Positions 3 to 24,756 of a stretch of DNA of 64,000 nucleotides are shown here, piece by piece (within the stretch, counting starts at the first letter, position 1; each line of letters starts with the position of its first letter). The DNA is from Azorhizobium doebereinerae UFLA1-100 (GTDB lineage Bacteria; Pseudomonadota; Alphaproteobacteria; Rhizobiales; Xanthobacteraceae): positions 1 to 64,000 of the forward strand of contig NZ_AXBA01000021.1 in the NCBI RefSeq assembly GCF_000473085.1, given 5' to 3'. Made by a program: the position numbers and the translations under genes. The notes beneath the pieces are model-generated. The model was given only the letters and a program-made list of their open reading frames with translations, ran no database searches and was not told the origin of the DNA.

Positions 3-269
3 CAGGCCGTCATGGCCGATACCGCCTATGACAGCGACGCCCTGCGCGCCACAATCGCGGCAAGGAACGCGCAGGCGGTCATCCCGTCCAATCCATCCCG
101 CGCCAGGAAGCATAGCCTCGACAGGCACCTCTACGCTCAGCGCCACCTGATCGAATGCTGCTTCTCCAAGCTCAAGCAGTTCAGGCGTGTCGCGACCCGC
201 TTCGAGAAGACCGCGCGAAACTACCTCGCCATCGTCACAATCGCTGCCATCGTCCTGTGGATCAGGTAA
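3..269 (+). pseudogene. IS5-family (IS427-like) transposase, C-terminal part cut by window edge
   Basis: The frame is open from the left edge and ends at a TAA, giving about 88 residues that match the C-terminal third of DDE transposases of the IS5 family. The stretch starting at the window edge carries an Asp-Ser-Asp segment near the second catalytic Asp. The [20 protein letters not shown] motif holds the catalytic Glu and the conserved Arg/Lys helix, and is followed by [14 protein letters not shown], typical of the IS427 group. Whether the element is intact cannot be seen because its 5' part lies outside the window. I did not recognise a terminal inverted repeat in the roughly 130 bases between its stop and dapE. 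Confidence 0.8.
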
Positions 270-405
270 CTGTCCACACCACCTAGGGGGCGAAGGCGGC
301 AGCCTCGTGGCGGGCCGGACGCTAAAATGCCCATTGACGCCAGTGCCTGGGCGCGCGAGGCAAGGCTTGCGCGCGGCTCAGGCGCGCCCGCTCCGGACCA
401 GCTCC

Positions 406-8064: not shown

Positions 8065-8988
8065 ATGGCCAAGGTGGTTTCTGTCGGCGAAGTGATGGTG
8101 GAACTGGCGCGCGGCAATGACGGGCGCTTCGGCCAGTCGTTCGGTGGCGATACGTTCAACACCGCTGTCTATCTCGCCCGCGCCGGCATCGAGACCGCCT
8201 ACGCCACCGCCCTCGGGGACGACGTGTTTTCCGCCCAGATCCTGGCGCTGGCGGCGAGCGAGGGGCTGGTCACGAACGCTGTCGTCGCGGTGCCGGGGCG
8301 GGTGCCGGGCCTCTATCTCATCACCACCGACGACCGGGGCGAGCGCACCTTCCATTACTGGCGCGACTCGGCGCCGGCCCGTGTCCTGTTCGAGCTGGAG
8401 GGCTGGCAGGCGGTCGCGGAGAAGCTGGTGGAGGCGCAGGCGGTCTATTTCTCCGGCATCACCCTGTCGCTCTATTCCAACACCGGCCTTGGCCGTTTCC
8501 TGGCCACCTTGGAAGTGGCGGCGGAGCGTGGGGCCTGGCGGGTGTTCGACGGCAATTTCCGCCCGCGCGGCTGGCAGAACGACCTGCCGCGCGCCCGCAT
8601 GGTGTTCGCGGAGGCGCTGAAGCGCTCGTCCATGGCGCTGCCCACCTTCGAGGATGAGGCGCTGCTGTGGGGCGATGCTTCGCCGGAAGCCACCATCGCC
8701 CGCATCACCACCTTCGGCGTCAAGGAAGTGGTGGTGAAGAACGGCGCCGGCGGCGCCTTGGTCCATGCGGACGGCCAGACCATCGCCGTGCCGGTGGAGC
8801 GCGAGGTTCTGCCGGTCGATACGACGGGTGCCGGCGACAGTTTCAATGCCGGCTATCTCGCCGCCCGCCTCAAGGGCGAGAGCCCGGAGGCGGCCGCCCG
8901 CGCGGGCCATGCCCTGGCCGGCGCGGTGATCATGCATCGGGGGGCGATCATCCCCCGTGCGGCGCAGGAAGGGGCGGTGTCGCACTGA
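8065..8988 (+). CDS. kdgK: PfkB-family sugar kinase, probable 2-dehydro-3-deoxygluconokinase
   Basis: A ribokinase/PfkB-family kinase of 307 residues. It has the N-terminal GGDTFNTAVYLARAG substrate-binding motif and the C-terminal DTTGAGDSFNAGYLA signature with the catalytic base Asp258. The FHYWRDSAPAR segment is typical of 2-keto-3-deoxygluconate kinases, which feed KDPG to the lower Entner-Doudoroff pathway. A KDPG aldolase gene lies 2 kb away on the other strand, consistent with this role. CAGGGAAA precedes the ATG. Confidence 0.8.
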   Translation: MAKVVSVGEVMVELARGNDGRFGQSFGGDTFNTAVYLARAGIETAYATALGDDVFSAQILALAASEGLVTNAVVAVPGRVPGLYLITTDDRGERTFHYWRDSAPARVLFELEGWQAVAEKLVEAQAVYFSGITLSLYSNTGLGRFLATLEVAAERGAWRVFDGNFRPRGWQNDLPRARMVFAEALKRSSMALPTFEDEALLWGDASPEATIARITTFGVKEVVVKNGAGGALVHADGQTIAVPVEREVLPVDTTGAGDSFNAGYLAARLKGESPEAAARAGHALAGAVIMHRGAIIPRAAQEGAVSH

Positions 8989-9141
8989 CGGTCCATGATA
9001 GTGCTCAAATCGTTTTAGATGTGCGATTCGCAGCGAAAGTCGATCGGGCCGGAATTTCGCGGATAGGCGCCGGCTCTCTCGTTCTTTCCTGAAGCTGTTA
9101 TTTGACAACGCTCCGCATCATCTGCGGGGGACGGGCGGCAT

Positions 9142-9155
9142 TTGATCCAGATCAA
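9142..9155 (+). promoter_or_regulatory. FixK/FNR box ahead of the globin-coupled sensor gene
   Basis: TTGATCCAGATCAA is a perfect FNR/Anr palindrome (TTGAT-N4-ATCAA) and also fits the FixK2 form TTGA-N6-TCAA. A GATGAT hexamer at 9177-9182 lies 31 bases (centre to centre) from it, right for a class II activated promoter with a start near 9189 and translation from the ATG at 9217. Confidence 0.75.
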
Positions 9156-9216
9156 ATGCCATGCCATGAAAATGGGGATGATCCTCCGGGTTGTACCTAT
9201 CTCGGTGACGTCAAAC

Positions 9217-10332
9217 ATGCCGTCGAGTCTCACGCGTTGGACTGATTTTCTCGCCATCGATGCTGAAGTCGTCAGGACCTTGGGGACGTTTCCCGAGATC
9301 ATCGAGCCGCACATGGATGCGATCCTCGATCGCTTCTACGAACGCATCCTGACCGAAGACACGGCGGTACGGCTGTTCCAGGATTCCGCGACACTGACGC
9401 TGGTGCGCCGGGCGCAACGGCGCCACTGGGTCGAGCGTGTGTTTGCCGGCCGGTTCGATGCGGAGTATCGGCGCGTCAGTCGCGCGATGGGGCAAAGCCA
9501 TTTCCGCGCCGGCGTCGATGCGATGCTGTTTACCGCGGCCTATTGCCTGGTGCTCAACGAGGTGGCGGGGGTCATCATCTCCACCTTCCGGAACGATCCG
9601 GCCCAGCAGCAGCGCTACCTCTCGGCGGTCAACCTGGCGGTGTTCCTCGACCTGGGGCTCGCCACGTCGGTCTATTACGAAGACTATCTGGCCGATGTCG
9701 AGGACTGGTCCAGGGACCTCGACCATACGCTGGCGCGCGCCGAGGAATATGGTGAGCAGGGGGCCGGGCTCCACCTTGCCCGGATGAGCGGCATGTGCCG
9801 GGCCCTGGCGATCGCCGCGGGCCAGGAACCGGCATGGGCCGATCTGCTCCTGGCCGCCAGTCCGCTCTATGATCTGATCAAGTCCAGCATTCCCGAGAGC
9901 ATTCTCCTGCGGCCCGGCTCGCTGGATGCCAGCGAGCACGCCTTGATGCGCAAGCGGCCGCAGCTCGGTGCCGATACCCCTCCCAGCCATCGGTCGGCGG
10001 TCATCCGCATGGCGCGGCGGGTGGGGCTCAGCCACCATGAGAGATGGGATGGCAACGGCTATCCCACGGGCCTGCGCGGCGAGGAAATTCCGCTGGAGGG
10101 TCGCATCGTCGCCATCTGCCACACCTACGACGCCCTGCTCAGCGAGCATCCGCATCAAAAGGCCTGGACCTGGGAGCGCACGGTGCGCTTCATGCGCGAG
10201 AACAGCGGGGTCATGTTCGACCCTCGGCTCATGGATGTCTTCCTGGCCATCCTCCCGGAGATCGAGGGGATTCGCACATCCTATGCGGATGTGGATGAGG
10301 CCGCGTCGATCGATCGGGCCTTCCCGGCCTGA
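9217..10332 (+). CDS. Globin-coupled sensor with a degenerate HD-GYP output domain
   Basis: About 371 residues if translated from the ATG at 9217; ATGs at 9166, 9172 and 9178 are alternatives. Residues 10-155 look like a sensor globin: RRHWVERVFAGRFDAEYRRV, then GQSHFRAGV, with His95 as the likely proximal haem ligand. Residues 165-345 align with HD-GYP c-di-GMP phosphodiesterases, keeping LSHHERWDGNGYPTGLRGE (His273, His274, Glu275). The HD dyad is replaced by Tyr218-Asp219, the His of the usual HPE motif by Arg247, and one Asp of the VADxxD loop by His302. Metal-dependent hydrolysis is therefore doubtful; it may bind c-di-GMP or a partner in response to oxygen. No membrane segment is seen. 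Confidence 0.82.
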   Translation: MPSSLTRWTDFLAIDAEVVRTLGTFPEIIEPHMDAILDRFYERILTEDTAVRLFQDSATLTLVRRAQRRHWVERVFAGRFDAEYRRVSRAMGQSHFRAGVDAMLFTAAYCLVLNEVAGVIISTFRNDPAQQQRYLSAVNLAVFLDLGLATSVYYEDYLADVEDWSRDLDHTLARAEEYGEQGAGLHLARMSGMCRALAIAAGQEPAWADLLLAASPLYDLIKSSIPESILLRPGSLDASEHALMRKRPQLGADTPPSHRSAVIRMARRVGLSHHERWDGNGYPTGLRGEEIPLEGRIVAICHTYDALLSEHPHQKAWTWERTVRFMRENSGVMFDPRLMDVFLAILPEIEGIRTSYADVDEAASIDRAFPA

Positions 10333-10344
10333 GGGCCGGCGCAG

Positions 10345-10968
10345 TCAGCTCCGTTCGGCCAATGCCAGCCGAAGGCCGAAGGCCACGAAGACGCAGCCGG
10401 TCAGCCGGTCGAGGCCGAGCACCACGGCGGGGCGGGCGAGGACGCGGCCGAGTGGGACGGTGAGCGCGACCAGCGCCGCGAACCAGGCGAGCGTCAGCAG
10501 CACATGCAGCCCTGCCAGCAGCAGGCAGAACAAGACGGCATCGCCGCCCGGCGGAATGAACTGGGGCAGGAAGGTGATGTAGAACACCCCCACCTTCGGA
10601 TTGAGCAGATTGGTCGTCAGGCCGCGCCGGAACGCCGTCGCAGCCCCGCCGCCGGCCTGCGGGGGCATCGCCGCCACGCGCGGCTTCAGGATGAGCATGA
10701 TGCCGAGATAGAAGAGATAGCCCGCCCCTGCCACCTTCACGACGGCGAAGGCGATGCTGGAGGCCGCGAGCAGCGCGGTGAGCCCCAGAGCCGCTCCCAT
10801 GCCCCAGGCGCACAGCCCGAGCGCGATGCCCAGCGCCGCCGCCGCGCCGCCCCGGGCGCCCGACACGGCCGAAGCGCGCAGGACCATGGCGGTGTCCACG
10901 CCGGGGGTGAGCGTCAGCACGCCGGCCGCCACCGTGAAGGCGAGAAGAAGGGGCAGCATTTCACCCAT
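10345..10968 (-). CDS. LysE/RhtB-family amino-acid exporter
   Basis: A 207-residue inner-membrane protein with about six hydrophobic segments. The LysE-superfamily signature TLTPGVDTAMVLRASAVSGARGG is near the N-terminus and LLNPKVGVFYITFLPQFI is in the central loop. The family exports basic or neutral amino acids; the substrate is not predictable here. The ATG at 10968 or the one at 10959 could start it. It is convergent with the globin-coupled sensor gene and lies 17 bases downstream of the KDPG aldolase gene, so it is probably read from the same transcript. Confidence 0.85.
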   Translation of the reverse strand: MGEMLPLLLAFTVAAGVLTLTPGVDTAMVLRASAVSGARGGAAAALGIALGLCAWGMGAALGLTALLAASSIAFAVVKVAGAGYLFYLGIMLILKPRVAAMPPQAGGGAATAFRRGLTTNLLNPKVGVFYITFLPQFIPPGGDAVLFCLLLAGLHVLLTLAWFAALVALTVPLGRVLARPAVVLGLDRLTGCVFVAFGLRLALAERS

Positions 10969-10985
10969 GTCCGCCCCTTGGTGCC

Positions 10986-24407: not shown

Positions 24408-24421
24408 TTGATTTGGATCAA
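24408..24421 (+). promoter_or_regulatory. FixK/FNR box with a fitting -10 hexamer
   Basis: TTGATTTGGATCAA is a perfect TTGAT-N4-ATCAA site. TAAAAT at 24442-24447 lies 30 bases away (centre to centre), suiting a class II promoter with a start near 24454. The first recognisable gene downstream is the chemoreceptor at 24757. Confidence 0.75.
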
Positions 24422-24756
24422 GTCCGAACCCGCGGTTGCATTAAAATGATACCGTTTAGCGCAAGCCTCAGGCAAGCCCCGGCACATAGCTCTCCTGTCC
24501 GTCGCGAGACCTTTGCCAAGGGGGCGAGGTCCCGCCGTGCCGCGAGGGCGGCGTGTCACCCGGGGGCGAGGGCGGCGGCCGCATTGCCGTGCGCCGATGA
24601 GCGCAGCGGTTCGACGGAGGCAGACCACGCCTGCATCCGTCCGCATGGGGGCAAAACGCCGCGGTTCCAATCGCGCGGGGCGGCGGTGTCGGCTCGTGCA
24701 ACGCCGCTCGCGCGGCGCGGATCGGCATCGTTGCCGAGCAATGAGCGAGACGTGTG

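Follow-up and report, generated by a model that had tools for sequence, protein, structure and literature searches.

A globin-coupled HD-GYP protein of Azorhizobium doebereinerae with a degenerate metal site

Active globin-HD-GYP proteins and dead HD-GYP regulators have both been published. The GCS-HD-GYP protein of V. fluvialis reportedly hydrolyses c-di-GMP when O2 is bound, and keeps all its metal ligands and the Rxx(R/K) pair (PMC10882959). PA2572 of P. aeruginosa, a YN-GYP protein with the motif YNIGK, is enzymatically inactive and still regulates (PMC3749722, PMC3411652). DvhD of Desulfovibrio vulgaris (9rbz, 9rc0), in which the HD and HH residues are lost, holds no metal, does not hydrolyse c-di-GMP and binds it (PMC13090378). 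For NosR of B. pseudomallei, an HG-GTP variant, an action on other c-di-GMP enzymes was proposed (PMC12570481). RpfG depends on its GYP motif both to bind GGDEF proteins and to control motility, separately from c-di-GMP turnover (PMC3749722).

Here we describe a globin-HD-GYP fusion gene in a window of 64,000 nucleotides, the whole stretch of A. doebereinerae DNA that was analysed. Its product resembles V. fluvialis GCS-HD-GYP in having an N-terminal globin with distal Tyr and proximal His and a C-terminal HD-GYP domain but, judged against the description of that protein, it is without four metal ligands and the Rxx(R/K) pair. As in PA2572, whose motif is taken from the literature, the His of the HD pair is replaced by Tyr and GYP is kept, and the inactivity reported for PA2572 is predicted here. 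The two proteins differ in their input, a receiver domain in PA2572 and a globin in the window protein, and in the second residue of the pair, which is Asn in PA2572 whereas Asp219 is kept here. DvhD likewise has an HD-GYP fold without a usable metal centre (a prediction from sequence for the window protein) that is helix-linked to a sensory domain; however, DvhD has lost HH and binds c-di-GMP, whereas the window protein keeps HH and is without five of the seven mapped DvhD contacts. NosR too has a degenerate HD-GYP output tied to gas sensing, with a proposed effect on c-di-GMP that does not involve hydrolysis of its own, but NosR belongs to the response regulators and relies on a separate protein, NosP, to sense the gas. 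Membership of the window protein in the NosR family was rejected, as its NF053512 score of 74 bits falls short of the cut-off of 400.

What is new here is a degenerate HD-GYP domain within a globin-coupled sensor, seen once. The original prediction had called an inactive domain in such a role unusual. This is too broad, inactive HD-GYP regulators being known (PA2572, NosR, DvhD), and it keeps its point for the globin-coupled version: no globin-coupled HD-GYP protein with a lost metal centre was found in the titles, abstract openings and passages of the literature searched, which took in few subscription papers and no bioRxiv preprints.

The gene and its domains

The gene and the elements of its two halves are as follows.

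9217..10332, + strand: globin-HD-GYP fusion gene (ATG at 9217; 371 aa and stop; from translation)
9217..9687, + strand: protoglobin sensor domain, residues 1-157 (Pfam PF11563, E 7.2e-27, 94.8 bits, cut-off 25)
9337..9339, + strand: Tyr41, distal (B10) Tyr position, aligned with the Tyr of FYD in 2w31 and 5ohe
9499..9501, + strand: His95, proximal (F8) His, aligned with the conserved His of 2w31 and 5ohe
9703..10290, + strand: HD-GYP domain, residues 163-358 (Pfam PF13487, HD_5, 76.4 bits, cut-off 27.2)

The ATG at 9217 matches the equivalent ATG starts of relatives. The TTG at 9142, where the longest mechanical reading frame begins, was not preferred; it falls within the FNR-type box described below. 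At an E limit of 1, Pfam detected only protoglobin and HD families in the product.

The protoglobin match spans residues 3-157, and the globin half also matched the solved globin-coupled sensors 2w31, 5ohe, 1or4 and 4uiq by sequence. In 2w31 and 5ohe, the residues aligned with His95 and Tyr41 presumably have the roles of proximal His and distal Tyr. The roles of these two residues across globin-coupled sensors are described in PMC10882959. The window protein thus has what defines a globin-coupled sensor, namely an N-terminal protoglobin domain above the curated cut-off, a proximal His and a distal Tyr, and its globin half appears to be an intact O2 sensor, with the heme-pocket residues kept. 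The sensor-globin N-terminus with His95 as proximal ligand, as originally proposed, is borne out by the Pfam score and by the alignment to 2w31 and 5ohe. Because only HD-GYP relatives were supplied for structure prediction, the model is poor in this half (pLDDT below 50 at residues 1-27, 39-41, 43-92 and 94-97), and the globin fold therefore rests on sequence; weak structural matches of the modelled globin half (1or4, Z 8.0; 2w31, Z 7.4) were left out of the evidence.

Among the seven full-length globin-HD-GYP proteins, including this one, the proximal His is present in all and the distal Tyr in five. The other two, L089 and L090, have Leu at the distal position and an intact HD-GYP site, the reverse of the pattern in the window protein, and their gas preference may differ. 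The A. doebereinerae genome encodes two more protoglobin proteins (L002 and L003, on contigs 25 and 10), whose C-terminal parts look by eye like chemotaxis transducers.

In the HD-GYP half, the HD_5 match covers residues 186-338. By VIA-align, the predicted model matched 4r8z (Z 25.8), 4mcw (Z 25.3) and 9rbz (Z 21.7). Against PmGH (4mcw), residues 163..357 fell on 166..360, with 194 of 195 residues aligned and an rmsd of 2.1, and the phmmer alignment of the two proteins was gap-free across 163-358, with an offset of +3. The fold, the GYP loop, the HHE residues and the bridging Asp are common to the window protein, PmGH (4mcw, 4mdz, 4me4) and PA4781 (4r8z). The latter two are metal-bound, whereas four PmGH ligands, H221, H250, D305 and E185, are replaced in the window protein. 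The following elements of the site were mapped.

9760..9762, + strand: Gly182 in place of metal ligand E185 (sequence and structural alignment)
9868..9882, + strand: YDLIK (218-222) in place of HDxGK (H221Y; Gly to Ile at 221; Asp and Lys kept)
9955..9957, + strand: Arg247 in place of metal ligand H250 (sequence and structural alignment)
10033..10065, + strand: HHERWDGNGYP (273-283), an intact HHExxDGxGYP motif (translation and alignment)
10120..10122, + strand: His302 in place of metal ligand D305 (sequence and structural alignment)
10147..10158, + strand: HPHQ (311-314) in place of the guanine-recognition motif RxxK (His311 on R314, Gln314 on K317)

The eight metal ligands of PmGH, E185, H189, H221, D222, H250, H276, H277 and D305 (PMC4159591), correspond to Gly182, His186, Tyr218, Asp219, Arg247, His273, His274 and His302. 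Four of the eight are thus lost (E185G, H221Y, H250R, D305H), including three of the six core ligands, and four are kept, the bridging Asp included. The domain therefore retains the fold and HHExxDGxGYP, and has neither HDxGK nor a full ligand set. In addition, PmGH D183 is replaced by Glu180. The altered HD motif region was modelled with middling confidence (84, 66 and 83 for the blocks of residues 211-230 and 241-250).

The original prediction had placed Tyr218, Arg247 and His302 at ligand positions, and these residues do fall on PmGH H221, H250 and D305; HHE (273-275) and GYP (281-283), which it held to be kept, are confirmed by translation. An alignment in which shifted residues supplied the ligands would have spoken against it. 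The alignment to PmGH has a single offset throughout, and no such residues were found. Further changes come on top of those first listed and make the case somewhat stronger than originally put: Gly182 on E185, the loss of both residues of Rxx(R/K), and the replacement of the HDxGK Gly by Ile at 221.

Mutagenesis of PmGH allows the effect of these changes to be judged. Activity was essentially abolished by H221A or H250A and markedly reduced, with some kept, by E185A or D305A; D183A behaved like the loss of a ligand, whereas R314A, K317A or Ala in GYP did not substantially lower catalysis (PMC4159591). Because both H221 and H250 are replaced here, the loss of hydrolysis is strongly indicated, and the prediction that the window protein has lost its metal centre and c-di-GMP hydrolysis is well supported by its sequence. 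Loss of nucleotide binding may be proposed less firmly.

Conservation in relatives and an FNR-type box

Relatives were collected by protein and profile searches amounting to 1,727 genome searches (3, 296, 397, 385, 398 and 248; some genomes were searched more than once), at E limits between 1e-20 and 1e-50. Loci were taken for the best matches; the other matches listed start no earlier than position 131 of the query or profile. At least seven full-length globin-HD-GYP proteins were found, the window protein included, a lower bound because fusions with divergent globins could escape. Two of the relatives belong to another genus of the same family (L089, 45% identity; L090, 42%) and four to a different family of the class (L145, 49%; L202, 48%; L203, 49%; L204, 42%). 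All six have the eight ligands and RxxK, and in each of them both domains clear their Pfam cut-offs; the HD_5 scores range from 106.4 to 124.9 bits, versus 76.4 in the window protein. The degenerate state is known from one genome, and a second degenerate globin-HD-GYP sequence was not found among these relatives. From a contig scan, 80 of 589 relatives were taken, and the frames of at least 150 aa at those 80 loci showed no globin. Among plasmids, 129 records matched, none with a place covering 80% of the query.

To place the replacements in a wider set, 227 HD-GYP frames from these loci were reduced to 212 unique ones covering the domain, the window protein included. The six core ligands (H221, D222, H250, H276, H277, D305) are invariant in all 211 other domains, a set that was collected by similarity to the window protein and under-samples other degenerate domains. 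For the 80 contig-scan loci in it, recruited by short peptide patterns including HHERWDGN, conservation of HH is inflated; H221, H250 and D305 lie outside all recruiting patterns. Counting Asp as Glu at E185, 178 of the 211 keep the eight ligands, 31 are without one and two without two, the missing ligand always being E185 or H189. The Rxx(R/K) pair, lost in the window protein, is nearly constant elsewhere (R in 209/211, K or R in 209/211). Over the 33 positions conserved at 95% or more, the window protein has nine changes (H218Y, G221I, D227E, K232R, H247R, D302H, R311H, Y313H, K314Q) and keeps 24, those of the GYP loop included.

Upstream of the gene lies a box of the FNR/FixK type, a consensus that we take to be TTGATN4ATCAA or similar.

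9142..9155, no strand assigned: palindromic FNR/FixK-type box, TTGATCCAGATCAA, a perfect palindrome beginning 75 bp upstream of the ATG

This pattern was seen twice in the window, where 0.01 was expected, and at 11 places (L237-L247) in the 5.8 Mb genome, versus none for the reversed control. The second occurrence in the window, also a perfect palindrome (24408-24421), lies approximately 330 bp upstream of a PAS-PAS methyl-accepting chemotaxis gene starting near 24754. Some of the genomic boxes precede genes for a Crp-type regulator, COX2, a GAF-sigma54 activator, a PAS-PAS chemoreceptor and an HpaB-family protein, and could form a small oxygen regulon; several of the 11 fall inside reading frames, and not every box need be functional.

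The loci of both same-family relatives (L263, L264) contain one TTGA-N6-TCAA each per 14 kb, where 0.01 and 0.04 were expected. These boxes stand at -71 and -74 from the start codon, compared with -75 for the window gene, and have nine of ten consensus bases, the upstream sequences being otherwise dissimilar by eye. As far as the assumed consensus holds, a promoter-region box is therefore kept in the same-family relatives, which belong to a single genus and are not mutually independent. No box was found upstream of the four relatives from the other family. The retention of the box before a degenerate gene argues that expression still matters; it could also be that the HD-GYP loss is recent and has not yet reached the promoter.

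Proposed signalling without catalysis and its rivals

We put at about even the chance that this protein is a globin-coupled O2 sensor whose HD-GYP output is a pseudo-phosphodiesterase, signalling through its GYP surface by protein contact. Transcription would take place when an FNR/FixK-type regulator is active, under low oxygen or nitrosative conditions. Binding of O2 by the globin dimer would shift the exit helix and change the HD-GYP dimer surface. The dead domain might then dock onto other proteins through the GYP loop, by analogy with RpfG and with GGDEF or GGDEF-EAL proteins as the likeliest partners, and c-di-GMP signalling would be gated by contact, without hydrolysis. We hold more tentatively, at somewhat under an even chance, to the full version in which the FNR-controlled, O2-binding globin drives the dead HD-GYP domain through the GYP surface only, diguanylate cyclases or another target being contacted and the nucleotide neither cut nor bound.

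Signalling by contact is favoured because the heme pocket, HHExxDGxGYP, the open frame, the codon bias and the FNR-type box are kept while ligands are lost, and because PA2572 regulates although inactive, RpfG binds its partners in a GYP-dependent manner, and GGDEF-EAL proteins are possible partners. We counted against it the occurrence in one genome, the fast HD-GYP half, the low HD_5 score, the genus mates that are without the gene, the active-site replacements (most of them probably within reach of a single base change), the lack of an obvious neighbouring partner and the several boxes inside frames. As to partners, no obvious gene was found among the window neighbours. Deducing one from synteny was rejected, since neighbours differ among the lineages examined; by eye, neighbours are common to G246 and G150, and likewise to G716 and G1600. 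Of the two roles originally suggested for an inactive domain, that of a protein-interaction module fits better than that of a c-di-GMP receptor, the GYP motif being intact; the argument is one of analogy with RpfG. On such analogies, and given the DvhD contacts described below, we favour protein contact over nucleotide reception, and decay is the main rival.

Decay we consider possible, on the unlikely side. The gene would be the relic of a once-active globin phosphodiesterase, acquired or inherited, redundant beside 13 EAL domains and with its HD-GYP half drifting; the globin would perhaps still be made, without signalling. Evolutionary tempo bears on this directly. In a tree of the seven proteins, the branch to the window protein makes up 0.645 of 4.096 for the globin and 0.676 of 2.442 for the HD-GYP half, so that, relative to the other branches, its HD-GYP half evolved 2.04 times faster than its own globin (1.19-4.23 over 100 bootstraps with fixed topology). 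The same ratio was 0.75, 0.40 and 0.80 in three control taxa. This acceleration speaks for a relic, as do the changes at nine of the 33 most conserved positions and an HD_5 score below those of all six relatives. However, with 19 active-site columns removed, the ratio fell to 1.53 (0.87-2.85), which is not clearly above 1; much of the acceleration therefore sits in the active site. Relaxed constraint and a change of function would both fit this acceleration. Judging from the codons, most active-site replacements would be reachable at the amino-acid level by a single base change, as drift would give.

The genomic setting also bears on decay. The gene lies between the following two neighbours.

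8065..8988, + strand: PfkB-family kinase, upstream neighbour (Pfam PF00294; 87% identical in both same-genus genomes)
10345..10980, - strand: LysE-type translocator, downstream and convergent neighbour (Pfam PF01810)

A KDPG-type aldolase gene comes after the translocator, and from it the name kdgK may be guessed for the kinase. The interval between kinase and aldolase varies within the genus (8989-10984 in the window, 6108-7055 in L261, 5390-5431 in L262). In one genus mate, G001, the aldolase gene directly follows the kinase gene with nothing between, and in the other, G002, the slot holds a methyltransferase and a LysE gene. The globin-HD-GYP gene is absent from both of these genomes, the only two others of the genus examined: at E 1e-20, nothing matched in G001 and the sole match in G002 was an HD-GYP one starting at residue 183, and tblastn at the locus returned nothing for L261 and one piece, at E 0.059, for L262. 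The gene is therefore dispensable there, and its absence, the slot being empty or occupied by a methyltransferase, counts for a relic. In its own genome, the window protein is the only HD_5 match (E 0.001), beside 13 EAL domains. Pfam found GGDEF in nine of ten EAL-locus frames (10 of the 13 EAL loci; the frame of L251 was the wrong one). If these EAL domains are active, phosphodiesterase capacity would be independent of the window protein.

Against decay, the HD-GYP half has an open frame with no stop and a normal codon bias: its third-position GC of 0.825 is close to the 0.80 of the globin half, both somewhat under the adjoining kinase (0.87) and translocator (0.89) genes. Moreover, 24 of the 33 most conserved positions are kept, GYP loop ones among them, the FNR-type box is intact, and the rate excess becomes compatible with none once the active site is set aside.

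We judge it improbable that the protein is an O2-gated receptor for c-di-GMP or another nucleotide, binding without cutting, with oxygen and nucleotide jointly setting the conformation. DvhD provides a published precedent of a metal-free HD-GYP c-di-GMP receptor (PMC13090378), to which the model aligns (9rbz above). Arg247 and His311/His313 would place positive or aromatic side chains near the site, and PmGH catalysis was not substantially lowered by R314A or K317A. Of the eight canonical c-di-GMP contacts of DvhD, seven could be mapped (Y523 lies outside the alignment), and two of these, L577 and Y621, are kept, as Leu236 and Tyr282. The other five are changed, R650, Y652 and K582 to His, E668 to Asn and M646 to Leu; at the bridging site, P567 is also Pro and R569 is Ser. 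Nucleotide reception is disfavoured because only two of the seven mapped contacts are identical and because the Rxx(R/K) pair, so well kept elsewhere, is lost. The original prediction of an inactive domain thus holds as regards the metal centre and hydrolysis, while its c-di-GMP receptor role is weakened.

A metal-dependent hydrolase with a rebuilt centre, in which His186, Asp219, His273, His274 and His302, together with Tyr218, would bind one or two metals, perhaps for a changed substrate, seems very improbable. His can stand in for Asp as a metal ligand, which counts for such a centre, as do the four original ligands kept (the bridging Asp included) together with Lys222, and the activity that remains in PmGH E185A and D305A. 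However, H221 and H250, essential in PmGH, have become Tyr and Arg, Ile takes the place of Gly221 and Glu that of D183, and an Arg at the metal site should disfavour metal. Finally, that this is an ordinary active globin-HD-GYP phosphodiesterase, misread through an alignment or assembly error, is scarcely credible: the six relatives that share its domain order are canonical, but the alignment to PmGH is gap-free, and six separate replacements lie within one open frame whose codon use is normal. The codon bias itself makes an assembly or frame error unlikely.

Significance

The FNR-type box common to this gene and two relatives makes the degenerate globin-HD-GYP protein easy to test. If the gene is decaying, it would show an O2-regulated phosphodiesterase in the course of being lost, the active site going first, then the sensor and the fold. 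If instead the protein signals without catalysis, it would be a natural split of the two jobs proposed for HD-GYP domains, cutting c-di-GMP and docking GGDEF proteins, under a switchable input. A globin sensor would then be able to drive a non-enzymatic HD-GYP output.
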